Shown here piece by piece: positions 5,289 to 29,183 of a stretch of DNA of 64,000 nucleotides; within the stretch, counting starts at the first letter, position 1, and each line of letters begins with the position of its first letter. The position numbers and the translations under genes were made by a program. The DNA lies in contig NZ_WSZK01000015.1 in assembly GCF_009791395.1 (NCBI RefSeq), forward strand, positions 682,001 through 746,000, in the 5' to 3' direction. The notes beneath the pieces were generated by a model that saw only the letters and a list, made by a program, of their open reading frames with translations, searched no databases and had not been told where the DNA came from. Source of the DNA: Halomarina oriensis. Its GTDB lineage: Archaea; Halobacteriota; Halobacteria; Halobacteriales; Haloarculaceae.

Positions 5289-5374
5289 ACTCGTCGACCG
5301 ATTCCGACGTCTCTCGAACCCGTGAGCGGCGGCGGCCGAGACACCGGCCGGTCGGCGACGAGAGAGTCGAGAAG

Positions 5375-5447
5375 TAGTTCCACCAGGATTCGAACCTGGG
5401 TCGTTGCCCCCAGAAGGCAACAGGATTGGCCGCTACCCCATGGAACT
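5375..5447 (-). tRNA. tRNA-Gln (anticodon CUG)
   Basis: The minus strand folds as a complete cloverleaf. The acceptor AGTTCCA pairs with TGGAACT, with discriminator A. The D-arm contains GGGGTAGCGGCC, the anticodon stem-loop TTGCC-TTCTGGG-GGCAA gives CUG, and the T-arm has GGTTCGAATCC. It has no encoded CCA and no intron, and is 73 nt. It sits alone between a lipoprotein gene and purO. Confidence 0.95.
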
Positions 5448-5526
5448 GCACTCGATAGGAAGGAGGCCGGATATTAAAACGTCGTGGTTCGGACCCGACA
5501 CCCCAGCGAACCCCTTCGTTTCGGGT

Positions 5527-5577
5527 CGAACGTGTATCATCGCCAGCTACTTTGCCGAGAGCTATGCACGAACACGT
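5527..5577 (+). promoter_or_regulatory. candidate purine operator upstream of purO
   Basis: TATGCACGAACA at 5563-5574 ends three bases before the purO ATG, where a leaderless transcript driven by CTACTTTG (about 5547-5554) would begin. The identical 12-mer lies upstream of the GfcR-like regulator (29062-29073), and 10/12 variants precede the purine permease. A weaker inverted half-site (7/12) lies at 5527-5538. The site is inferred from repetition, not from a known consensus. Confidence 0.5.
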
Positions 5578-6159
5578 ATGTACGTCGGTCGCTTCGTCGT
5601 CGTCGGACCGGGCATCGGTGCGTATCGAGTCTCCTCACGGTCGTTCCCGAATCGGCAGGTCGTCGAGCGTGACGGGACGCTCACCGTCGCCCCGACGTCC
5701 GACGCGCCGCCGACGGACAACCCCTACGTCTCGTACAACTGCCTGCGAACGGTCGAGCAGAGCGGCGAGTCCCTCGCCGTCGTCGGCAACGGGTCGCACG
5801 TCGACCCCATCGCGGAGAAGGTGGGGATGGGCTACCCGGCCCGTGACGCGCTGGCGCTGTCGTTGCTCGCACTGGACTTCGAGAAGGACGACTACGACAC
5901 GCCGCGTGTGGCGGGCGTCGTCGAGACTCACGGTGCGACGATAGCCACCGTCCGGCGGGACGCACTGGTCGTCCGCGAGGTCGCGGAACCGACGCTCGTC
6001 GCCACCTACGAGGCCGACGACCCCGAACCGTTCGACCTCGGGGCGACCGACGCCGCGACCGCGGCACGGGAGGTGTACGACCACGCGTACGAACACGCGG
6101 TCTGTGCGGCGGGCGTCACCGTCGGTGAGACCGTCGAGACGTCGCTGGTCAACGAGTAG
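5578..6159 (+). CDS. purO: archaeal IMP cyclohydrolase
   Basis: The 193-aa product matches archaeal PurO across its length: [10 protein letters not shown] start, [11 protein letters not shown], and [10 protein letters not shown]. PurO closes FAICAR to IMP, the last step of de novo purine synthesis, replacing the cyclohydrolase half of bacterial PurH. The ATG at 5578 gives the canonical N-terminus; upstream in-frame sequence is not conserved-looking and runs into tRNA-Gln. It is monocistronic. The TATGCACGAACA element on its start suggests purine-responsive control shared with the purine permease and GfcR-like genes. Confidence 0.92.
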
Positions 6160-25254: not shown

Positions 25255-25358
25255 GTGCAGGGCGCGTGGCCGGACGCCAAACCGATTGCGGAGTCACGGG
25301 CGAGAAAACCGAGAGACGAAGGCGGGAGGGTTATACCGACCGCTAGCCACGACCTTGC

Positions 25359-25799
25359 ATGGTCGGACCGCGTCGCCGCTTCAAGACCGCCGACGTCGCC
25401 CAGCAGTTGGTCGGTGGCTTCCTCCTCGCCGGCCCGTTCGTCGTCACCGCCGAAGTGTGGCAGTTGGCGAACAACATGCGCTGGTACCACGTCCTCGCCA
25501 CGGTCGGCATCGTCTTCGGCATCGGCTACGGAGCGCTGTACAAGGCCGACGCGGGGCGGGACCCCGACCGCGAGGTCGAAATCGCCGGGGTTCCGACGCG
25601 ATTCGTCTCGCTGATGGCCGTCTCCTTCGGGTCGGTGCTGGTCCTGGCGCTGGCGTTCAACGCCCCGAACACCTTCGCCGGGGACTTCCTGCAGGACGCT
25701 CCCGACCCGACGACGCTCGCGTTCTTCACGCTGAAGGCCACCGCTGTGGGAGCCATCTTCTCGGTGGTCGGCGCGGCCACGGCGGACTCCGTCTTCTGA
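25359..25799 (+). CDS. four-helix membrane protein (DUF2391-like)
   Basis: The 146-aa protein has hydrophobic segments at about 17-35, 46-62, 80-100 and 122-142. The loop sequences (WQLANNMRWYH, LKATAVGAIFSVVG) fit the TIGR02587/DUF2391 membrane proteins of haloarchaea. A TATA box (GGTTATACC, about 25328-25336) precedes the ATG by 23-31 bases. Function is unknown. Confidence 0.55.
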   Translation: MVGPRRRFKTADVAQQLVGGFLLAGPFVVTAEVWQLANNMRWYHVLATVGIVFGIGYGALYKADAGRDPDREVEIAGVPTRFVSLMAVSFGSVLVLALAFNAPNTFAGDFLQDAPDPTTLAFFTLKATAVGAIFSVVGAATADSVF

Positions 25800-26714: not shown

Positions 26715-28217
26715 CTACGAACCGACCGCAGCGTCCAGCACGCCGCCGGTGGCGACGACGAAGTAGACGACGAACGCCAGCGCGAGGGCGACCTGTGTCG
26801 GGCGGACGTCCTCCCACTCGCCGACGGCCACCTTCACGAGCGGGTAGGAGACGATGCCGGCGGCGATGCCGTAGCCGATGTTGAACGTGAACGGCATGAC
26901 GAGGATGGTCAGCCCCGCCGGAACCGCGTGGGTGATGTCGTCCCAGTCGACGGCAGCGATGTTGCCGAGCATCACGACGGCGATGACGACCAGCGCGATG
27001 TGACTGGCGTAGAGCGGAATCGCCGTCGCCAGCGGGACGAACGCCAGCGAGACGAGAAAGAGCAGCGCGACGACCAGCGCGGTCATGCCCGTCCGGCCGC
27101 CCTCCTCGACGCCCGTCGCGGACTCGATGAAGGTGGTGACGGTGGAGGTGCCGAGCATCCCGCCGACGGTGGTGCCGACGGCGTCGGCCATCAGCGGCTT
27201 CTCTATCTCGGGCAGGTCGCCGTCCTCGTCGAGGAAGCCGGCAGCCTGGCCGACACCCGTCAGCGTGCCGGCGGTGTCGAAGAAGTCGACGAAGAAGAAC
27301 GTGAAGACGATGAGCGCGAACGAGAACGGTTCGACGCCGGAGAGTCCGGTGACGAACGCGCCGGCCAGCGGCGAGATGTCGTACTGTGCGCCGAACAGTT
27401 GGCTCTGGAGGGCGGCCCAGTCGAACCCCCCCGAGACGACCAACGGGTCGAGGCCGAGACGCAACGGCACGACGAACGACGGGGCGACGGTCCCCGTCGA
27501 GACGAGACCGGCCATCGTGACGAGACTCCCCAGCACCGTCGTTCCGAGGATGCCGATGACGATGGACCCGCGAATCCCACGCGCGTAGAGCGCGAGCGTC
27601 AGGAACAGGCCGACGATGGACACGATGGCGATGGGGTCGCTGGCGACGTTGCCCAGCGTGACGAGCGTCGTGTCGTCGTTGACGACGATGCCCATCTCTT
27701 CGAGGCCGATGAGTGCGAGGAACGCGCCGATACCGGCCCCGACGGAGAACTTCACCGGTTCGGGGAACGCCTCGATGATGAACTTCCGTGCGCCGACGGC
27801 GGTCAGCAGGACGAAGACGACTCCCTCGACGACGACGGCGGCGAGCGCCGTCTGCCAGGCGACGCCCAACCCGAGGACGACGGTGAACGCGAAGAAGGCG
27901 TTCAGCCCCAGACCGGGGGCCTGCCCGAACGGTCGGTTGGCGTAGAGCGCCATGACCGTCGTGGCGACGACGGCCGAGAGGATGGTGACGACGGCCAGCA
28001 TCGACCGGACCGCCCCGTCGCTCATCCCCGGTACGGTGATGGCCGGGCCGAGGATGGCGGGGTTCAGGAAGACGATGTAGCTCATCGTCAGGAACGTCGT
28101 GACGCCGGCGGTCACCTCGGTCCCGAGGTCGGTCCCGTACCGGTCGAACTCGAAGAACCCCCGGACTCCCCCGGACTCGTTCGACGACTCGTCGGTCTGT
28201 GTATCAGCGGGCCCCAT
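26715..28217 (-). CDS. AzgA-type purine permease (NCS2 family)
   Basis: The 500-aa protein has about 13 membrane helices. Signatures are GVTTFLTMSYIVFLNP, GQAPGLGLNAFFAFTVV, FVDFFDTAGTLTGVG and GTSTVTTFIESATGVEEGGRTG, which place it with adenine/hypoxanthine/guanine proton symporters (AzgA/PbuG) rather than uracil permeases. It brings purine bases into the cell for salvage. It lies just downstream of the GfcR-like regulator, and its promoter carries an inverted pair of the same 12-mer found at purO. Confidence 0.85.
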   Translation of the reverse strand: MGPADTQTDESSNESGGVRGFFEFDRYGTDLGTEVTAGVTTFLTMSYIVFLNPAILGPAITVPGMSDGAVRSMLAVVTILSAVVATTVMALYANRPFGQAPGLGLNAFFAFTVVLGLGVAWQTALAAVVVEGVVFVLLTAVGARKFIIEAFPEPVKFSVGAGIGAFLALIGLEEMGIVVNDDTTLVTLGNVASDPIAIVSIVGLFLTLALYARGIRGSIVIGILGTTVLGSLVTMAGLVSTGTVAPSFVVPLRLGLDPLVVSGGFDWAALQSQLFGAQYDISPLAGAFVTGLSGVEPFSFALIVFTFFFVDFFDTAGTLTGVGQAAGFLDEDGDLPEIEKPLMADAVGTTVGGMLGTSTVTTFIESATGVEEGGRTGMTALVVALLFLVSLAFVPLATAIPLYASHIALVVIAVVMLGNIAAVDWDDITHAVPAGLTILVMPFTFNIGYGIAAGIVSYPLVKVAVGEWEDVRPTQVALALAFVVYFVVATGGVLDAAVGS

Positions 28218-28222
28218 GATTC

Positions 28223-28283
28223 ACGTTCGAGCATACACACGCATACTGACTTAGGCGTTGCCTTCCGATATATGCACAAACGT
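28223..28283 (-). promoter_or_regulatory. inverted pair of candidate purine operators upstream of the permease
   Basis: The half-site TATGCACAAACG (plus strand 28271-28282) overlaps the likely TATA (TGCATATATCGG on the minus strand). The opposite half-site TATGCTCGAACG (minus strand 28235-28224) ends six bases before the start codon. Each matches TATGCACGAACA at 10 of 12 positions, and the centres are 47 bp apart. Confidence 0.5.
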
Positions 28284-28334
28284 GGATTGACACGACGCGC
28301 GGCGGCGGTGTCGGGCGGCGTCGGGCCGTCGCCG

Positions 28335-29048
28335 TCAGTCGAGCGTCGTGAGTGCGCCCACCGGCGCGTCGGTGCGGGACTCGGCGACCTCGACGCCGTC
28401 GGTGCCGGCGGCGATGAGCGCGAAGACGCCGGTGACGTTCGTGTTCGCCTGGGCGGCGATGTCGAGTAGCAGTTCCTGGGTCTCGCCCGACCGGATGAGG
28501 TCGTCGACGACGAGGACGCTGTCACGCTCCGAGAGGGCGCGTTCGGGGAGGTAGTAGGTCAACTCGATACCCGACTCGAAGCGCTTGCGCGCCTCGATGA
28601 ACTCCTCGACGGCGGTCTCCTTGGACTTCTTCGCGTAGGCGAGTCGCGCGTCGAAGTGTCGCGCCATCGCCGAGCCGAGCGTGATGCCGTCGGTAGCCGC
28701 GGTGAGGACGACGTCCGGGGACTCGAACTCGAAGCGTTCGGCGACGACGGGCGCGACGAGGTCGAGGAACGGCTGGTCGAAGACGGCCGCGGAGTTGTCG
28801 ACGTACCCCTCCTCGTCGTGGCGGATGCGCGATTCGAGTTCGGCCGCGAGCGTCTCGTAGCCCGTCTCGCTCACGAGTTCGTGCGCACGGGCCTCACCGG
28901 GGAGCACGTGGCCGTTGACGTATCGGTTGAGGTCACCGGCCGGGAGCCCCGTCTCGTCGGCGAGTTCGTCGTACGTGCGCGTCCGCTTGAGCGTCCTGAG
29001 GACGGCGACCGCTCGCAGTTGGAGGGTCGCCTTCTCGGCGCGGTTCAT
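28335..29048 (-). CDS. gfcR: HTH-phosphoribosyltransferase transcriptional regulator, GfcR-like
   Basis: The 237-aa protein fuses an N-terminal HTH (about 10-55, with TYDELADETGLPAGDLNRYV) to a type-I phosphoribosyltransferase fold ending in the PRPP motif VLVVDDLIRSG (178-188). This is the GfcR architecture; GfcR of Haloferax controls sugar-degradation genes. Similar PRT-domain regulators (bacterial PurR) sense PRPP and control purine genes. Here the next gene is a purine permease and the promoter shares an exact 12-mer with purO, so a purine role is at least as likely. Start MNRAEK chosen; longer frame upstream is unlike the family. Confidence 0.75.
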   Translation of the reverse strand: MNRAEKATLQLRAVAVLRTLKRTRTYDELADETGLPAGDLNRYVNGHVLPGEARAHELVSETGYETLAAELESRIRHDEEGYVDNSAAVFDQPFLDLVAPVVAERFEFESPDVVLTAATDGITLGSAMARHFDARLAYAKKSKETAVEEFIEARKRFESGIELTYYLPERALSERDSVLVVDDLIRSGETQELLLDIAAQANTNVTGVFALIAAGTDGVEVAESRTDAPVGALTTLD

Positions 29049-29050
29049 AC

Positions 29051-29074
29051 TGTTCGCGTGGTATGCACGAACAT
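29051..29074 (-). promoter_or_regulatory. candidate autoregulatory operator of the GfcR-like gene
   Basis: TATGCACGAACA (plus strand 29062-29073) is identical to the purO element. A second half, TGTTCGCG (29051-29058), faces it in the opposite orientation, 11 bp centre to centre. The pair lies immediately upstream of the start codon on the minus strand. Confidence 0.5.
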
Positions 29075-29183
29075 GAGTACGTCGATGCGGAACGGGTATC
29101 GGGTAGGCATCCCGGTGGGTAGTTCGTGACACGCCGGGGAGAGAACCCATACAGCCAAACCCCCCGCGGCAAATATCGCGTGT

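Follow-up and report, generated by a model that had tools for sequence, protein, structure and literature searches.

What does the PRT-fold protein encoded next to a purine permease in Halomarina oriensis regulate, and through which DNA site? The stretch analysed here (64,000 nucleotides, hereafter the window) contains both genes and, further away, purO for archaeal IMP cyclohydrolase. A sequence-only reading, starting from a 12-mer common to the promoters of all three, had proposed a GfcR-like, PRPP-binding regulator controlling purine uptake, the last step of IMP synthesis and its own gene. Profile matches confirm this outline of the genes (Table 1). The best explanation of the data as a whole is that the PRT-fold protein, referred to below as the regulator, is very probably a dedicated purine regulator present in most haloarchaea.

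Table 1. Genes and predicted operators in the window. Operator scores are matches among the 14 defined positions of the 18-bp repeat.
Feature	Position	Strand	Sequence	Score	Evidence or remark
Regulator gene, 237 aa	28335..29048	-			NF006328/PRK08558, 334 bits; PF00156; N-terminal helix-turn-helix and purine-type phosphoribosyltransferase domain
Predicted helix-turn-helix of regulator, about residues 25-48	28905..28976	-			alignment of 44 homologues, model helices
PRPP-binding loop of regulator, about residues 177-190	28479..28520	-	VLVVDDLIRSGET		nearly invariant in alignment
Predicted operator of regulator gene	29062..29079		TATGCACGAACATGAGTA	12/14	14-31 bp before ATG
Second, weak predicted operator of regulator gene	29104..29121			9/14	42 bp from first
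Purine permease, Xan_ur_permease, NCS2 superfamily	26715..28217	-			PF00860; directly downstream of regulator
Predicted upstream permease operator	28271..28288		TATGCACAAACGTGGATT	12/14	
Predicted downstream permease operator	28218..28235		GATTCACGTTCGAGCATA	12/14	abuts permease ATG; 53 bp from upstream one
purO, archaeal IMP cyclohydrolase	5578..6159	+			PF07826, TIGR01922, NF003167
Predicted purO operator	5563..5580		TATGCACGAACACGTATG	11/14	overlaps start codon
Second, weak predicted purO operator	5521..5538		TCGGGTCGAACGTGTATC	9/14	42 bp upstream; conserved in three Halomarina

We examined the protein itself by profiles and structure prediction. It is a full-length member of NF006328 (PRK08558, 'adenine phosphoribosyltransferase'), scoring 334.1 bits over residues 1-236 against a cut-off of 184, and its counterpart in the closest named relative, Halomarina rubra, is 95% identical. 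The designation 'GfcR-like' had to be given up. Against the curated GfcR model NF002620 the protein reaches 22.6 bits (cut-off 115), and the true GfcR of the same genome (272.8 bits) is encoded on another contig, which together rule out membership in that family. The AlphaFold2 model (mean pLDDT 92.6) has N-terminal helices at residues 26-33 and 37-44 and, after them, a PRTase fold; modelled in isolation, the N-terminal domain has a pLDDT of 64 and is thus of low confidence, and Pfam helix-turn-helix models match below their cut-offs only. Among 44 homologues, AGDLNRYVNGHVLP in the helix-turn-helix region is invariant, and so is most of the PRPP loop.

In fold, the protein comes closest to B. 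subtilis XPRT, several APRTs and PurR; in sequence, its nearest PDB entry is B. subtilis PurR. The PurR model TIGR01743 gives 40.2 bits (cut-off 258.7) through the PRT part only, and full-length superposition on PurR is poor (11-13 A rmsd). Since sequence similarity to PurR begins only at residue 63-71, past the DNA-binding part, PRTase has probably been joined to different DNA-binding domains in the two proteins. The invariant PRPP-loop sequence and the homology to PurR suggest that the regulator may sense PRPP. The database name 'adenine phosphoribosyltransferase' is probably misleading, as the evidence describes a predicted DNA-binding regulator.

Next, we turned to the DNA site. Exact copies of the 12-mer TATGCACGAACA occupy 5563-5574 and 29062-29073, and variants matching at 10 of 12 positions lie before the permease at 28224-28235 (minus strand) and 28271-28282 (plus strand), as had been noticed before. 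A genome-wide search revealed no further exact copy in the whole 4.07-Mb genome. In the window alone, four 12-mers with up to two mismatches were found against 1.17 expected, a marginal excess reached by 5 of 100 shuffles. The 12-mer is not the operator unit. Each copy forms part of an 18-bp inverted repeat, TATNCACGNNCGTGNATA, and because relatives show full dyads, the 12-mer was abandoned as the binding unit in favour of this repeat. Perfect dyads, for example TATCCACGTTCGTGGATA, occur among the regulator and permease upstream regions of 80 named haloarchaeal genomes, in which sites matching at least 11 of the 14 defined positions cluster just upstream of the regulator gene and between it and the permease gene. 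The position frequencies come from 54 distinct primary sites chosen by closeness to the consensus and are sharpened by this selection; genome-wide scoring was done by pattern searches with mismatches. In the window, five places score at least 11/14 (0.45 expected under a first-order Markov model), and four of these are located at the three promoters. The sequence TAGCCACGACCTTGCATG at 25344-25361, which overlaps the start of an open reading frame for a small membrane protein (25359-25799), also scores 11/14 and may be a chance occurrence.

When the operator was searched for in the whole genome with up to two mismatches, nine places were obtained, eight of them upstream of purine-regulon genes: purF; the region between a purU/purN-like formyltransferase gene and purSQ; folD; gcvPA (the site being about 100 bp upstream of the gene); a second NCS2 permease; the window permease (two places); and the regulator gene. 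The ninth lies inside an unrelated, sulfatase-like coding gene. Among places with three mismatches, purO, purD and the divergent purB/purH stand out, most of the others being within coding genes. NCBIfam models identified PurS, PurQ, PurD, PurL, PurB, PurF, GuaA subunit A, FolD and GcvPA above their cut-offs; the formyltransferase beside purS passes the model of the formyltetrahydrofolate deformylase subfamily, and a PurN-PurH-like fusion passes the PurN cut-off. No sugar gene was found among the operator-bearing targets identified. The idea of a shared operator for purine uptake, purine synthesis and the regulator's own gene is thus supported by sites at pur, folD, gcvPA and permease genes, and the predicted regulon extends well beyond what had originally been claimed.

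At one locus (L172, G000 C6:33636) the operator is placed between divergent purSQ and a gene with an ACT domain and a formyltransferase domain, which passes the formyltetrahydrofolate deformylase subfamily model and may encode PurU or PurN. At L237 and related loci, purB is divergent from a fused PurN-PurH-like gene devoid of the usual PurH start; the IMP cyclohydrolase step would there be left to purO. Two loci (L179 and L265) contain a second NCS2-type (xanthine/uracil-like) permease with an operator, far from the regulator locus.

Genomes differing by the presence or absence of the regulator were compared for the prevalence of operators. Near-perfect sites number 488 in 255 regulator-bearing genomes versus 7 in 77 genomes without it. 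Within the family to which Halomarina belongs (98 genomes), 71 sites with at most one mismatch were counted in 45 genomes possessing the regulator and five in 53 devoid of it (Fisher p 7e-14), a reversed-pattern control giving 2 and 3 sites, respectively; in the other families of the class there were 417 sites in 210 regulator-bearing genomes versus 2 in 24 without (p 6e-14). Both p-values ignore shared ancestry and count related genomes repeatedly, so that independence is overstated. No site with up to one mismatch is found in 8 of the 45 regulator-bearing genomes of the own family and 33 of the 210 in other families.

The genomic context of 82 sites was read. In regulator-bearing genomes, 67 of 77 sites occupy a position upstream of a purine-regulon gene (55 of 63 in the own family, 12 of 14 in others), compared with none of five in regulator-less genomes; purF, purS, purD, purL, purB, purH, folD, gcvPA, guaA, permease and regulator genes were counted as targets. 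For several genes, the site keeps an almost constant distance from the start codon (purD 54 bp, purL 40, purS 49-50, folD 73-74). Operator, target genes and co-occurrence with the regulator, together with the helical spacing described below, can be read directly from the genomes. This comparative genomics lends strong support to a purine regulon governed by a PRT-fold regulator, and the predicted capacity of the protein to bind DNA gains support from its helix-turn-helix and from the co-occurrence. We are highly confident that the regulator binds the 18-bp operator, although this has been deduced from genome comparison.

The regulator was detected above the cut-off in 234 of 294 sampled Halobacteria genomes, and about 190 other genomes of the phylum yielded no full-length relative above it. 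Whole genera lack the gene, such as g53 of family f4 (7 of 7 sampled genomes). These seven (G164, G207, G235, G284, G290, G322, G328) contain at most one operator-like site each. In one genome (G092) the regulator gene is present twice, with equal scores for the copies at C1:27787 and C2:1758639.

Operators come in pairs. Of the ten promoters examined in the Halomarina genome, none lacks a partner site scoring at least 8/14; it lies at 42-43 bp in eight and at 53 bp in two, while any other distance is seen on average at about 0.3 of the ten. The second site is mostly the weaker one, as at purO and the regulator gene. The pair spacings of 11, 36 and 47 bp given by the sequence-only reading are not the meaningful ones; the dyad starts are separated by 53 bp in the permease promoter (28218/28271) and by 42 bp in the promoters of purO (5521/5563) and of the regulator gene (29062/29104). 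At the 80 named loci, distances from the strong to the second site concentrate at 52 (18 cases), 53 (11), 63 (7), 61 (5) and 42 bp (5), against 0.29 expected per distance; for purine promoters, the commonest distance is 42-43 bp. Spacings of 42, 53 and 63 bp correspond to four, five and six helical turns, placing both sites on the same face of DNA.

Positions of the sites bear on the sign of regulation. Transcripts in haloarchaea are usually leaderless or have short leaders, and on this the following argument relies. Sites lie over or near the presumed core promoter at purS (-26 to -9), purO (-15 to +3), the permease (-18 to -1) and purF (-48 to -31). Mainly because one site of a pair is usually so placed, we predict that the regulator acts as a repressor, which we regard as probable. 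The sign remains uncertain, since it is deduced from site position and a scan for TATA-like elements located them clearly only at purF and purL. The same regulator might instead be mainly an activator that recruits the transcription machinery to the same regulon when purines are short: the strong site of several promoters, purF and folD among them, is upstream of the presumed TATA box, and GfcR was reported to be an activator (PMC11519228). This we consider unlikely, for at most promoters (purS, purO, permease, purF) the second site covers the TATA/start region and occlusion fits better.

An ordinary adenine phosphoribosyltransferase, with some other transcription factor acting on the operator, would agree with the family name, the intact PRPP loop and a fold resembling APRT and XPRT. 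However, few parts of the protein are as strongly conserved as the recognition region of its helix-turn-helix, operators precede its own gene, and genomes in which the protein is missing contain hardly any operators, which makes such an enzyme very improbable. A GfcR paralogue regulating sugar degradation would share the general plan of a helix-turn-helix followed by a PRT domain; the low score against the GfcR model, the true GfcR at another locus and the lack of sugar genes among identified targets leave hardly any room for it. Nor can the shared 12-mer seriously be taken for a coincidence. The marginal count in the window and the failure of purO sites to persist in most genomes would speak for chance, yet enrichment at purine genes throughout the genome and the class, as well as the helical pairing of sites, reduce its probability to next to nothing. 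A dedicated purine regulator, most likely a repressor, thus stays the preferred reading.

Among the targets, purO deserves separate treatment, because the sequence-only reading had made conservation upstream of purO orthologues its own test and the site is not conserved there in most regulator-bearing genomes. Three Halomarina and genus g8 (G007, G023) have it intact, possibly along with a few others. The best purO scores are 8.43 with and 7.92 without the regulator (p 0.07), and 10/14 is reached at this position in some genomes lacking the regulator. With a site confined to few lineages and nearly equal scores in both groups, purO was rejected as a core target. Two blocks in the purO upstream region of the three Halomarina, the 15 bp adjoining the ATG and a segment from about -70 to -41 that includes the weak second site, are conserved amid diverged sequence, and the 42-bp spacing conforms to the pattern of paired operators. 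From these sequence features purO is likely a lineage-restricted member of the regulon; that its site, taken alone, arose by chance is improbable. In genus g6, the purO loci L301, L305 and L307, from genomes without the regulator, carry TGTGCACACTCGCGTATG or a close variant (10/14) at -15, either by chance or as a relic of lost regulation. The purO promoter of the window is immediately preceded by a minus-strand tRNA-Gln (CTG) gene at 5374-5447.

The following mechanism can be proposed. A dimer of the regulator would bind the 18-bp inverted repeat, and two dimers would occupy a strong and a usually weaker copy 42, 53 or 63 bp apart on the same DNA face. With one copy over or next to the core promoter, transcription would most likely be blocked at de novo purine genes, genes for one-carbon supply (folD, gcvPA), purine permease genes and the gene of the regulator itself. 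As a sensor, the protein would have retained its phosphoribosyltransferase domain, whose ligand is most likely PRPP, a purine nucleotide or both. We can only tentatively suggest PRPP as an inducer, and a purine nucleotide or base as co-repressor is an equally tentative choice. In Halobacterium salinarum, pur genes rise at low purines, in a mutant in which PRPP is thought to be low too (PMC4540570). If an orthologue is present and acts there, this conflicts with PRPP as inducer, as pur genes rise when PRPP is thought low, and a co-repressor, be it a purine nucleotide or a purine base, would account better for the data. A bolder variant would be a trigger enzyme, that is, a working purine phosphoribosyltransferase that is at the same time the purine repressor, its grip on the paired operators being set by PRPP, base and nucleotide, and reached independently of bacterial PurR by fusion of a different helix-turn-helix to PRTase; taken jointly, these assumptions seem rather unlikely to hold.

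Todor et al. (2013; PMC3794607), of the group that reported the H. salinarum data above, inferred that a regulator independent of TrmB must act on the purine genes of Halobacterium, and stated that they could identify no PurR homologue. We now name a candidate for the regulator these authors inferred, together with its operator, its targets and a geometric rule. No description of a haloarchaeal purine repressor was found in the literature searched, which mostly did not extend to subscription papers.

How does the proposed regulator compare with known systems? B. subtilis xanthine phosphoribosyltransferase (1y0b, 2fxv) is the best fold match of its PRT domain, but is an enzyme without a DNA-binding domain. 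Haloarchaeal GfcR (NF002620/PRK02277; pyrE1) likewise combines an archaeal helix-turn-helix with a PRT fold. It belongs, however, to a different family and has different target genes. E. coli PurR, of the LacI family, is a single repressor over de novo purine genes and one-carbon supply, as proposed here, although its protein fold and operator are unrelated. The nearest solved relative is B. subtilis PurR (TIGR01743; PDB 1o57, 1p4a, 7rmw), which likewise has a PRT-type effector domain, regulates its own gene together with those of de novo purine synthesis (for the haloarchaeal protein judged from operator positions) and uses two operator boxes per promoter (PMC8789054). The boxes themselves differ, being 14-bp CGAA PurBoxes with a spacer of 16-17 bp in B. 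subtilis (PMC8789054) and 18-bp palindromes paired at 42, 53 or 63 bp in haloarchaea. PRPP releases PurR from PurBox pairs and (p)ppGpp opposes this (PMC8789054); by analogy, release by PRPP could hold for the haloarchaeal regulator as well. Archaea and bacteria would have placed the same pathway under one type of sensor fold, apparently combined with different DNA-binding parts.
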